The notes beneath the pieces were generated by a model. It saw only the letters and a program-made list of their open reading frames with translations, made no database searches and was not told the origin of the DNA. Positions 3,342 to 32,324 of a stretch of DNA of 33,453 nucleotides are shown here, in pieces. Origin of the DNA: Candidatus Coatesbacteria bacterium (GTDB lineage Bacteria > RBG-13-66-14); assembly GCA_014728225.1 (NCBI GenBank), contig WJLX01000093.1, forward strand, positions 1 to 33,453, read 5' to 3'. Position 1 is the first letter of the stretch, and every line of letters starts with the position of its first letter. The position numbers were made by a program, and so were the translations under genes.

Positions 3342-3400
3342 CGAGTTCCGCCAGTCTGATGGTGATTACTGGTTGACGCAAAAGATACGATCTGTCCCGG

Positions 3401-3859
3401 ATGAGCAGTGGGCAACGAAATCATTGCTCTGTAACGGACGATCCAGCACCCCTGGACGGCGCGGGCCTGCGCGGCGGAGGAGACAGCCGCCGACGGGCGG
3501 AGCTGGAGAAGCTCTACCCGGCCGAGATCGAGGAGCGCATCCGGGGTATCCAGAGCGGGGCGGGCTGGGCCGAGGGACAGCTCGAAGCTCATTATGAAAA
3601 CCATTCCAATGGATACGCATCCTTCGACGATTACAAGGCGTCCGTCGAAAAAACACTTCAAAGCCCGGACAGGGTGATAACAAGGTATTACAGGGACAGA
3701 CGCGGGACAGAACACTGCCAGTGGGCGTTTTATAATGCGGAAGAAGACACTCTTGTGCATGTCTACCAGGCGAGCGGTCGGATAGGGACGGCATATAGGT
3801 CGCGGGCCTGGCGCAGCGAAGATTACATGCGGACAGATACGGTGGAGGTGCTGAGATGA
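3401..3859 (+). CDS. Orphan toxin-tip-like protein, copy 1 (N-terminally truncated)
   Basis: The 152-residue product shares the block GAGLRGG...IQSGAGW (residues 20-56) with the protein at 4163, then diverges. The C-terminal part keeps the same outline: HYExH (64-68), a DxY helix, DRVxxxY, WxFY, then SGxIxT. This outline resembles the BECR-fold RNase tips of polymorphic toxins (Barnase/EndoU/ColE5-RelE class), where a His and a late Ser/Thr are catalytic; that is an inference from the pattern. Compared with copy 2 it lacks the roughly 80-residue Cys4 leader; sequence before residue 20 is unrelated, and the start is uncertain. Its stop overlaps the next gene by 4 nt (ATGA), indicating coupled translation with a putative immunity partner. 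Confidence 0.6.
   Translation: MSSGQRNHCSVTDDPAPLDGAGLRGGGDSRRRAELEKLYPAEIEERIRGIQSGAGWAEGQLEAHYENHSNGYASFDDYKASVEKTLQSPDRVITRYYRDRRGTEHCQWAFYNAEEDTLVHVYQASGRIGTAYRSRAWRSEDYMRTDTVEVLR
3458..3568 (+). repeat. Repeat block X, copy 1
   Basis: This 111-bp block encodes GAGLRGG...SGAGW and is nearly identical to 4403-4513. Similarity stops abruptly on both sides, marking it as the joint between variable tip and upstream module. Confidence 0.85.
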
Positions 3860-4170
3860 AGGCGACGGAACTTTACAAGCGATTAGTCGCGGCGCTGGCC
3901 GATGGAGACACCGATGAGGCGGACGCCGTCGTCGAGGCCCGCGACTACGTTGCCGCTGAACAGCGGGACGGTGATAGCCTAGTGATCGAAGCCGACAAGG
4001 CCCTCGTCCGCGCGGCGGATGTGCTGAGTGGCGTGGTCGATACGTTCGCCGATCGGCGGGGCGAGCCGGAGTGGTGGCACAACCTCTGGACGATCATCGA
4101 GGGCGAGTATCCCCTCGATCAGCTCCCCGAGCACGTCCGCGACCTCGCGGAAAAACTCTACTATGACTGA
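3856..4170 (+). CDS. Putative immunity-like partner protein, copy 1
   Basis: This 104-residue acidic, mostly helical protein has no signal peptide. It starts inside the stop of the toxin-like gene (ATGA overlap). The middle motif LVIEADKALVRAA is loosely matched in the 101-residue protein at 4810, and the last 25 residues (GEYPLDQLPEHVRDLAEKLY...) are almost identical between them. Divergent body plus conserved ends, directly behind an equally divergent toxin-like tip, is the classic pattern of cognate immunity genes; I infer that role and have not recognised a family. Its last 8 nt overlap the start of the leader gene at 4163. Confidence 0.6.
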   Translation: MKATELYKRLVAALADGDTDEADAVVEARDYVAAEQRDGDSLVIEADKALVRAADVLSGVVDTFADRRGEPEWWHNLWTIIEGEYPLDQLPEHVRDLAEKLYYD

Positions 4171-4361
4171 GGTCAACCAGGCGGACCTCTTCACCGGCCG
4201 GGCGCCGGTCGACGAGGACCTGACGCCCGCGCAGCGGATGAAACTGATCCGGCGGCGCTTCGGCCGCTGCCGGACCCAAACCGAGGACGGACGATGCACT
4301 GCCTGGACGACGAGCGACGGACAGCCGATGGAGATCACGCCCGAGCGCTGCCTGCGCTGCC
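4101..4361 (+). repeat. Repeat block Y, copy 1
   Basis: This 261-bp block matches 5046-5306 at constant offset 945 with few differences. It spans the conserved tail of the immunity-like gene, the overlapping start ATGACTGA and the Cys4 leader. Confidence 0.88.
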
Positions 4362-4807
4362 GGGGAATGACCAACGCCTACTTCGGTGACCCGGGCAAAC
4401 CCGGCGCGGGCCTGCGCGGCGGTGAGGGCAGCCACCGACGGGCGGAGCTGGACAAACTCTACCCGGCCGAGATCGAGGAGCGCATCAAGGGTATCCAGAG
4501 TGGGGCGGGCTGGCCGGAAGCGTCACGCCGAGGGCTGGACTGGCATTACGAGAAACACCGTGAGGACCTGGAGCTCTCCACGAGCGATGAGTGGTCACTC
4601 GACCAGTATCAGGCCGAGTCTTTGCGAGTGATCCGGGAGGCCGATCGGGTGATGACTTATCACAAGCCGGGGACCACGGACACCGTGCGCTGGGGCTTCT
4701 ATGAAAGCGCGAGCGGGTTGTATGCGGCTGTGGACGGACAGTCTGGGGCTATAGCTACAATGTTCGGGTCTGAGTACCTGGATACAAGTGCATATGTGGA
4801 GGTATAA
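4163..4807 (+). CDS. Cys4-leader plus toxin-tip-like protein, copy 2
   Basis: The 214-residue protein has three segments. Residues 1-68 form a leader with four cysteines (C36, C45, C63, C66; the last pair CLRC), which could bind one zinc. Residues 81-117 are the shared joint GAGLRGG...SGAGW. Residues 125-214 are the variable tip with HYEKH (128-132), DRVMTYH, WGFY and SGAIATMF, again in the His...Ser/Thr order seen in BECR-type RNase toxin tips. There is no signal peptide or export domain, so it is either an orphan module or intracellular. The start at 4163 is set by homology with the leader at 5108. The immunity-like gene at 4810 begins 2 nt after the stop. Toxin function is inferred from pattern and context only. 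Confidence 0.65.
   Translation: MTEVNQADLFTGRAPVDEDLTPAQRMKLIRRRFGRCRTQTEDGRCTAWTTSDGQPMEITPERCLRCRGMTNAYFGDPGKPGAGLRGGEGSHRRAELDKLYPAEIEERIKGIQSGAGWPEASRRGLDWHYEKHREDLELSTSDEWSLDQYQAESLRVIREADRVMTYHKPGTTDTVRWGFYESASGLYAAVDGQSGAIATMFGSEYLDTSAYVEV
4403..4513 (+). repeat. Repeat block X, copy 2
   Basis: Second copy of the 111-bp joint encoding GAGLRGG...SGAGW; here it is fused downstream of the Cys4 leader. Confidence 0.85.
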
Positions 4808-4809
4808 GG

Positions 4810-5115
4810 ATGACCTGGGAAGCTGTTTATCTTAAGCAGGTGGCGTTGATAAACGATCCGCCAGAGGAATTCGACGTCGCAGATGCTCTCCGTGCCAGGG
4901 GAAGGATGCAGGGCAAGGTTGTGGAAGCTGAGACGGTAAACGAGGCTGATAGGAAACTTGTCAGGGTAGCACTTTATACCGAGGGCGATCCGCACATCCC
5001 AGCCTCTGGAGAACAATGGTTTGAGAACATCAAGGCCATCGCCCGGGGCGAGTATCCCCTCGACAAGCTCCCCGAGCACGTCCGCGACCTCGCGGAAAAA
5101 CTCTACTATGACTGA
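4810..5115 (+). CDS. Putative immunity-like partner protein, copy 2
   Basis: This 101-residue protein starts 2 nt after the toxin-like gene with AGGTATAAGG upstream as a weak ribosome binding site. The body (from MTWEAVYLKQV) differs from copy 1 except for an EADxxLVRxA core, while the last roughly 22 residues are near identical and overlap the next leader gene in the same way. Its lower GC and rarer codons (TTT, ATA, TAT) in the first 70 codons contrast with its GC-rich tail, suggesting the variable part was acquired separately. Function as immunity protein is inferred. Confidence 0.6.
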   Translation: MTWEAVYLKQVALINDPPEEFDVADALRARGRMQGKVVEAETVNEADRKLVRVALYTEGDPHIPASGEQWFENIKAIARGEYPLDKLPEHVRDLAEKLYYD

Positions 5116-5306
5116 GGTCAACCAGGCGGACCTCTTCACCGGCCGGGCGCCGGTCGACGAGGACCTGACACCCGAACAGCGGATGAAGATGATCCGGCGG
5201 CGCTTCGGCCGCTGTAAAACTCAGACCGAGGACGGACGATGCACCGCCTGGACGACGAGCGACGGCCGGCCGATGGAGATCACGCCCGAGCGCTGCCTGC
5301 GCTGCC
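5046..5306 (+). repeat. Repeat block Y, copy 2
   Basis: Second copy of the immunity-tail plus leader block. After 5306 the sequence departs from copy 1 and the leader ends without a tip. Confidence 0.88.
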
Positions 5307-27546: not shown

Positions 27547-28122
27547 ATGGCCCAGCGCAACAAGACCCGTTACGCCATTATGTCCCTGCTCTCTGAGCGG
27601 CCCCGCACCGGCTACGACATCAAGAAGGCCCTCGAGGAGAAGGAGATCTACTTCTGGAGCGAATCCTACGGCCAGATCTATCCGATCCTGCACAAGCTGG
27701 CCGAGGAGGGCCTGGCCGACAAGAAGAAGGCGCCGACGGAACGTCACCCCAATCGGACGGTCTATCAACTCAGCCAACGGGGCCGCGAGGAGCTGGTGGA
27801 GTGGCTCAAACGCCCCGCGGACACCATCCCGCTGCGCATCGAGCTGCTGCTCAAGCTGCGCTACGGGGCGCTGTCGACGCCGGAGGACAACCTGGCCCTG
27901 ATCGAGGAGTACCGGGAGGGCCAGCTGGGAGACATCGACCGGCTGGAGGAGCAGTTGAGCAAGCACACCGGTGCAGAGGCCGGAGAGTTCTACGCCCGGC
28001 TGACACTGCAGTACGGTATCGAATTGAAGCGGGCCCTGGTGCGCTGGTGCGCGGAAGCGCTCGCGGCGATCGAGCAGAGGACGGAACAGCCGGGCGGGTA
28101 TCGACGACCGCCGGTGCGGTAG
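27547..28122 (+). CDS. PadR-family transcriptional regulator
   Basis: The 191-residue protein has the PadR winged helix at about residues 8-80 (RYAIMSLLSERPRTGYDIKK; SYGQIYPILHKLAEEGLAD; RTVYQLSQRGREELVEWL) and a C-terminal helical dimerisation domain (VirR/PadR-C type, about 95-180). It probably represses its own promoter in response to a small molecule. ATG 27547 starts the MAQRNKTRYAI reading, giving a leader of about 26 nt without a clear Shine-Dalgarno. No obvious target gene is adjacent. Confidence 0.92.
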   Translation: MAQRNKTRYAIMSLLSERPRTGYDIKKALEEKEIYFWSESYGQIYPILHKLAEEGLADKKKAPTERHPNRTVYQLSQRGREELVEWLKRPADTIPLRIELLLKLRYGALSTPEDNLALIEEYREGQLGDIDRLEEQLSKHTGAEAGEFYARLTLQYGIELKRALVRWCAEALAAIEQRTEQPGGYRRPPVR

Positions 28123-28214
28123 TACAGTCATCGCTTGCGAAACGGGACGGCCTTGCGCGCGTCCCGCCGTCCTTATCAGCCGTCTGGATGATGACCCCTT
28201 CCCGGCGCTCCCGC

Positions 28215-28288
28215 GGGCCGTCACGGTTGTTGCATTCCGCCGAGCTCCCGCGGGCGGGAGCTCGGCGGGCAACAACGCGCGCCGGCCC
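28215..28288. repeat. Dispersed inverted-repeat element, copy R5
   Basis: Arms GTCACGGTTGTTGC (28220-28233) and GCAACAACGCGCGCCGGC (28269-28286) enclose a perfect 15-bp hairpin (28237-28251 with 28254-28268). Both arms carry the paired change T to G / A to C relative to other copies. Confidence 0.85.
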
Positions 28289-28478
28289 TTATCCGGCAAG
28301 CTGAGCAGTAATCGCCGGACCACGGGGGCTTAATCCCCCCGGAACCGACCTGCGGGGGTGGCTGACTGGACGGCGTGGATCTGTTTCCCTCCGACCTCGG
28401 GGAAGCAGCGCCTATGGACTTGAGAAGTGAGGGTTGAACCCTCGAAAAGCTGAAACGGTCCAAACCAACCATAACGCA

Positions 28479-28549
28479 GGGCCGGCGCACGTTTTTGCGA
28501 CGACGGACCGCCCAGGTCCGTCGTCAATGCAAAAACTGTGACGGCCCGG
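28479..28549. repeat. Dispersed inverted-repeat element, copy R6
   Basis: Arms GCCGGCGCACGTTTTTGC (28481-28498) and GCAAAAACTGTGACGGC (28529-28545) enclose a perfect 11-bp hairpin GACGACGGACC/GGTCCGTCGTC. Confidence 0.85.
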
Positions 28550-28770
28550 AAAAATGCGGGTGGCCAGGCGGTCGGTTCAGACGATCGGTTCGTTTACTAC
28601 CCGTAGCGGTCGGGGGCCGGTAGACCCGGGTTTGAAACCTGTGCTCGATAGCGCTTGAGCTCTCGAAACACTAACGCGATCAGCCACTCCACGTAGAAGG
28701 GGGCTCCGACCCCCGCCGTTAATACGTCAATGCCGAAACGTGTCTAACCCCCTCCCCGGCGGCCCGCCGA

Positions 28771-29019
28771 AAGGCGAGGCCGTATTTGAGCTCTGGAAAC
28801 CGGAGCGACGAGCGTGAGACGCGCAATCGGCCAACAAAAAGGGCCCGCCTGAGAAGGCGAGGCCGTATTTGAGCTCTGGAAACCGGAGCGACGAGCGTGA
28901 GACGCGCAATCGGTCAACAAAAAGGGCCCGCCTGAGAAGGCGAGGCCGTATTTGAGCTCTGGAAACCGGAGCGACGAGCGTGAGACGCGCAATCGGTCAA
29001 CAAAAAGGGCCCGCCTGAG
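28771..29019 (-). repeat. Three tandem 83-bp units, each carrying a terminator-like hairpin
   Basis: Units start at 28771, 28854 and 28937, with a fourth partial start at 29020; the copies differ at one visible base (CGGCC or CGGTC in the AATCGG(C/T)CAAC stretch). On the minus strand, downstream of the 16S gene, each carries GCCTCGCC-TTCTCA-GGCGGGCC followed by TTTTTG (the leftmost hairpin partner is altered), plus a CTCTGG-type hairpin (CTCCGG-TTT-CCAGAG). No coding sense, since the period is not a multiple of three. Confidence 0.9.
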
Positions 29020-29032
29020 AAGGCGAGCCCTT
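29002..29032 (-). terminator. Intrinsic terminator downstream of 16S rRNA
   Basis: On the minus strand a 10-bp stem AGGGCTCGCC/GGCGGGCCCT (one G-T pair), loop TTCTCA, then TTTTTG; it lies about 200 nt past the 16S 3' end. It is the first of a series; the others are inside the 83-bp repeats. Confidence 0.85.
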
Positions 29033-29042
29033 ATTCAGCCCG

Positions 29043-29070
29043 GGTGCTAGGGTCTTTGAAAGCTGGAAGG
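29043..29070 (-). other. Pre-16S processing stem, 3' side
   Basis: This 28-nt trailer segment is complementary to 30971-30998 in the 5' leader at 26 of 28 positions, including an unbroken 18-bp run. It should form the RNase III-type stem that loops out 16S rRNA. Confidence 0.75.
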
Positions 29071-29229: not shown

Positions 29230-30787
<1,558 letters not shown>

Positions 30788-30970: not shown

Positions 30971-30998
30971 CCTTCCAGCTTTCAAAGAACCTGGCACC
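30971..30998 (-). other. Pre-16S processing stem, 5' side, with boxA-like element
   Basis: Pairs with 29043-29070. Read on the minus strand it contains GGTTCTTTGAAAGCTGG, which resembles the boxA antitermination element found in rRNA leaders. Confidence 0.7.
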
Positions 30999-32295: not shown

Positions 32296-32324
32296 GACGA
32301 CGGATCCCGCCGGGGTCCGTCGTC
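32296..32324. terminator. Hairpin between convergent genes
   Basis: A 12-bp stem with one bulged base (GACGACGGA-t-CCC with GGGTCCGTCGTC) between the convergent genes at 31735 and 32971. No T-run on either side. Its core matches the interior hairpin of R6, so it may be a decayed relative of that repeat. Confidence 0.45.

Follow-up and report, generated by a model that had tools for sequence, protein, structure and literature searches.

Directly behind the 16S rRNA gene of this Coatesbacteria genome lies a tandem array of 3.3 copies of an 83-bp unit (28761..29035, minus strand; Tandem Repeats Finder, TRF). We consider it rather probable that transcription of a stand-alone 16S unit ends in this array, where a first terminator (T1) is followed by serial back-ups (T2 and T3), and that the array expanded recently from an ending composed of T1, a spacer and a further hairpin (T4). 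All positions refer to the window, i.e., the stretch of DNA analysed here, which is a complete contig of 33,453 bp from a 2.96-Mb metagenome assembly of 181 contigs. The phylum was deduced from a relative, the Candidatus Coatesbacteria MAG Bin_537, in which one locus has 82% protein identity to a protein of the window.

The 16S rRNA gene (29234..30787, minus strand) is full length (Rfam RF00177, 1578 bits) and the sole 16S match in the genome. Since it is located on the minus strand, the array lies downstream of it. No 23S rRNA gene was found within the 29 kb downstream of it in the window; a partial 23S gene is located on another contig (C150), where the 3.5 kb upstream contain a tRNA-Ala but no 16S. 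Thus the 16S gene forms a stand-alone unit and, being unlinked from 23S, needs an ending of its own. A leader-trailer (processing) helix is expected around 16S (PMC10250234), and the arm pairing found here fits: the 28 nt of the leader arm (30971..30998, minus strand) are complementary to the 28 nt of the trailer arm (29043..29070, minus strand) with 2 mismatches. The next gene downstream of the array encodes a PadR-family regulator (padR, 27547..28122, plus strand; Pfam PF03551 2.8e-18, PF10400 4e-14). It is convergent with the 16S gene and would receive antisense read-through from the 16S unit.

With a period of 83 the array reaches a match level of 97% and a score of 515 (TRF, window). A repeat search delivered ungapped copies starting at 28771, 28854, and 28937, spaced by exactly 83 bp, which correspond to a distal (28771..28853), a middle (28854..28936) and a 16S-proximal unit (28937..29019), all on the minus strand. 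The distal unit differs from the other two by a single substitution at 28831. If the sequence is compared with itself at a shift of 83 bp, exact runs of 60 and 113 bp are obtained, separated by this one substitution, and chance is therefore excluded for the array. A protein repeat was ruled out as well, since 83 is not a multiple of 3, and no known RNA family reached the Rfam gathering score in array or trailer. The genome search revealed no copies of the unit elsewhere in its own genome (G000), and neither unit nor array was found in the 13 other genomes of the phylum that were searched.

The copy number was taken from one metagenome assembly, and the longest exact internal repeat comprises 113 bp. 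Given such a repeat and the fragmentation into 181 contigs, the true genome might hold only one or two units, the array being an assembly artefact. However, the array is located inside a 33-kb contig, a substitution and different end hairpins tell its units apart, and assemblers collapse repeats more often than they expand them. We thus regard an artefact as highly improbable.

Four hairpins follow each other on the rRNA strand. T1 (29002..29032, minus strand; stem-loop 29032-29005) starts 10 nt past the leader-trailer helix and was found in a terminator scan as a proximal intrinsic terminator with a perfect 12-bp stem, a 4-nt loop and a U-tract. Its energy amounts to -21.8 kcal/mol (z -5.6 against shuffles) and, judged from the sequence, termination by T1 would be the natural reading. 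T2 (28919..28949, minus strand) is a chimeric intrinsic terminator with a left arm as in T4 and a right arm and U-tract as in T1, while T3 (28836..28866, minus strand) possesses an identical hairpin; in the direction of 16S transcription both correspond to T4 through CTCGCCTT and to T1 from CTCGCCTT onward. T2 and T3 have -16.3 kcal/mol each and an imperfect stem with one unpaired base, and their U-tract is shifted back by one base; both are predicted to be weaker than T1. The distal hairpin T4 (about 28761..28783, minus strand; -17.9 kcal/mol) is followed by GGGGAGGGG in place of a U-tract and is the probable older partner of T1. Tandem intrinsic rRNA terminators comprise at least two GC-rich hairpins with a U-tract on the rRNA strand, and T1, T2, and T3 are of this kind. 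An earlier note on this DNA had counted at least three terminator-bearing units plus the proximal terminator. TRF, the repeat search and the strand of the 16S gene agree that the units do follow 16S in the direction of transcription. The count was slightly high, as T1 is the proximal terminator itself and T4 lacks a U-tract, which leaves three U-tract terminators in total.

How such an array could have arisen is suggested by the chimeric hairpins. T2 and T3 are what one would expect if slippage or unequal exchange had joined parts of T1 and T4, and the ancestral ending was therefore probably T1-spacer-T4, which would be an ordinary two-hairpin end. The related hairpins T1 and T4 would then have undergone replication slippage or unequal recombination at their common CTCGCCTT, with T2 and T3 as the result; this exchange mechanism is the one we infer. 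One substitution among three units implies either a recent expansion or homogenisation of the copies. The recent tandem duplication of a terminator-bearing unit, which the same note had proposed, gains support from this single substitution and from the chimeric hairpin arms. In the preferred reading, RNA polymerase having passed the 16S trailer would first encounter the strong intrinsic terminator T1, which would do most of the work. Polymerases that read through would reach T2 and then T3, weaker serial back-ups that would catch them before they enter padR in antisense. Termination by the hairpins in vivo and the role of T2 and T3 as back-ups are what we infer from this arrangement.

The earlier suggestion that stacked terminators may insulate neighboring DNA from rRNA transcription is plausible. 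It is weakened by the strength of T1 alone, the predicted weakness of T2 and T3, and the restriction of the array to one of the phylum genomes searched; relatives, however, possess their own, independently duplicated terminators at the corresponding place. T1 alone may suffice for termination and, with the unit absent from relatives, this redundancy is not conserved. At the rrnB operon of E. coli, ~87% of transcripts end at T1 and the remainder at T2 (measurement quoted in PMC8144298), and a back-up is thus not idle in principle. A serious rival, compatible with the same anatomy, is that a pair of similar hairpins, located where transcription is heavy, undergoes slippage or recombination and thereby leaves extra copies without a selected role, T1 alone doing the work. 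The copies are near-identical and hence young, the chimeric hairpins are the weaker ones, and relatives lack the unit, all of which fits such a neutral by-product. We hold it to be possible, yet less probable than serial back-up termination.

The spacers between the terminators were considered as well. In E. coli rrnA, rrnB, and rrnD an sRNA is located between T1 and T2 (RrA/B/F; PMC8144298), and by analogy each inter-terminator spacer could be a small RNA gene expressed by read-through. The layout is the same, and the best sub-threshold Rfam match is to an sRNA family, ncS025 (E 0.29). However, this match is below the gathering score and was judged to be chance, the spacer does not fold better than its shuffles (z +1.07), and the unit has no relatives in its own genome or in the searched genomes of the phylum, such that a conserved structured RNA between the terminators was not found; small RNA genes are thus a very unlikely explanation. 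A degenerate copy of the trailer helix was likewise rejected as the identity of the spacer, as 435 of 500 shuffles were as good. A possible spacer relic further downstream, GTTTCGAGAGCTCA near 28653, is marginal (5 of 500 shuffles as good) and was left unused.

Beyond the array and outside its unit, two dispersed palindromic intergenic repeats are present (28472..28556 and 28201..28288, no strand assigned), the former with many similar places in its own genome. If 28140-28760 was used as query, at least 55 matches were obtained in the own genome, where 40 of 144 candidates were scored, and another 9 in G001, while none were found in the other 12 phylum genomes. The region was not retained as one conserved ncRNA, its recurring parts being the two palindromic repeats. 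The palindrome of ~75-85 bp is REP/REPIN-like and has conserved flanks such as GGCCGGCGCRCGTTKTTGC ... GCAAMAACYGTGACGGCC around a variable inner hairpin; a further member is located at 32296-32324. In the interval between tRNA-Ala and 23S on C150 (L042, G000), a long inverted repeat with arms of ~26 nt (GCCGTCGGAACTGGCACGGTTTTTGC) can be read from the sequence that resembles these palindromes. Another type of repeat is found at about 3351-5250 of the window, where a direct DNA repeat of ~200 bp (93% identity, copies 945 bp apart) extends over ORFs with common sequence; this is a tandem gene or domain duplication.

To place the array in its phylum, 16S trailers were compared by their direct repeats, counted if they were at least 30 bp long and the first copy began no more than 500 nt from the 16S end. 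Duplicated trailer or terminator DNA was found in 4 of 6 Coatesbacteria trailers versus 0 of 36 from other phyla, which is indicative only, since the test (p ~0.001 for three events in five lineages versus 0/36, with G008 and G010 as one event) was devised post hoc, corrects only roughly for the shared genus and includes mainly linked operons among the 36. Seven of these 36 have a usable length and lack a visible 23S within 1.5 kb, and against such apparently unlinked trailers the comparison is 4/6 versus 0/7 (p ~0.02, again by a test devised after the pattern had been seen). Taken as an indication, these trailers suggest that the 16S end is unusually prone to terminator or trailer duplication in Coatesbacteria. 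G004, G005, G007, G011, and G012 were left out because contig breaks or an undetected 3' half left no usable 16S trailer; G013, a gapped record with one terminator copy behind 16S, stands outside the comparison set. G001 and G006 have no such direct repeat. G001, which belongs to the same family as the window genome, possesses a second, non-homologous terminator ~80 nt behind the first, as read from its sequence.

The duplications themselves differ in content. In G003 (L038), ~90 bp of trailer helix and terminator and a copy of 85% identity flank a gene for 205 aa on both sides. This gene has 30.7% GC in a GC-rich genome and no Pfam or PADLOC match; it is AT-rich and is read as foreign. In G010 (L040), copies of a 99-bp terminator element with 100% identity lie on either side of an outer-membrane-protein-like gene, and another copy follows downstream, while G008 (L041) has several copies of the element with genes between them. 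Both genomes thus possess a series of genes, each followed by the 16S terminator element, a long-loop hairpin with CCCTCCCTCCTT that was found only behind 16S in both. The first two copies of G010 are identical, whereas those of G008 have diverged (alignment), which suggests homogenisation in G010. In G006 (L039, about 825-2692), two genes of 32-36% GC are located directly behind the 16S terminator and match DUF4365 (Pfam) and the PADLOC candidate defence pair PDC-M02A (with DUF4365) and PDC-M02B.

These relatives bear on the neutral by-product discussed above in both directions. The seemingly homogenised copies of G010 fit it, and a mutational hotspot would yield recurrent duplication at the same place. 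However, at least three lineages of the phylum have duplicated terminator or trailer DNA at this site, a recurrence that would not necessarily follow from a purely neutral local accident. A wider idea is that the 16S trailer and terminator of Coatesbacteria are a recombination hotspot and a landing pad. Gene gain would copy the terminator, and the duplicated terminators would flank or precede the gained genes, some of them AT-rich and defence-like, and insulate them from rRNA transcription; the 83-bp array would be one state of this process, the gene-free one. The enclosed gene of G003, the gene-terminator series of G010 and G008 with an element confined to the 16S end, and the candidate defence genes of G006 directly after the terminator speak for it. 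On the other hand, no recombinase or transposase was identified, G006 lacks a clear second copy, the genomes are few, and the unit spacer of G000 shows no sign of a cargo remnant. We therefore consider the landing pad only tentatively, as a rather unlikely explanation of the array.

Repeated duplication and possible gene gain behind 16S across the phylum are a more interesting lead than the array itself. Why rRNA genes have doubled terminators behind them has been called unclear even in E. coli (PMC8144298). In Coatesbacteria terminators were repeatedly and recently multiplied behind single, unlinked 16S genes, which offers natural material for deciding between selected redundancy and a mutational by-product. 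The same phylum provides material for asking whether foreign genes have a tolerated insertion site at the end of the 16S unit.

Among known cases, the dual rrn terminators and the tRNA-linked repeats (TLRs) of E. coli come closest. In rrnA, rrnB, and rrnD, T1 and T2 are serial terminators behind an rRNA unit as well, and the downstream one catches read-through (PMC8144298). However, E. coli has its two terminators behind 5S, on either side of an sRNA gene, whereas here a stand-alone 16S gene is followed by three near-identical tandem terminators and a U-less hairpin, and the spacer was duplicated along with the unit. TLRs, including the tyrT repeats (PMC8144298), directly follow a tRNA or rRNA gene in one to five copies, inside its transcription unit, and the three copies behind 16S share this position. 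The end of a TLR, however, repeats the final 18-19 bp of the mature RNA gene, while the unit, aligned locally with the last 97 nt of 16S, matches over 5 nt at best (equalled by 500 of 500 shuffles), i.e., no copy of the mature 3' end was found in the unit. G003 differs from TLRs too, as the trailer helix and not the mature end is duplicated. Stand-alone 16S genes occur in Thermus, Buchnera, and Wolbachia (see the reference list of PMC7761764). There, 16S is likewise transcribed apart from 23S and needs its own promoter and terminator; the seven other trailers without 23S within 1.5 kb in our comparison set, in contrast, show no terminator duplication. Several terminator copies in a row are also found behind the rRNA genes of eukaryotic rDNA, where Pol I terminators (Sal boxes) are repeated; these are protein-bound and unrelated in mechanism, which makes the likeness an analogy only. 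Taken together, the array is real and a modest variation on an arrangement already known.
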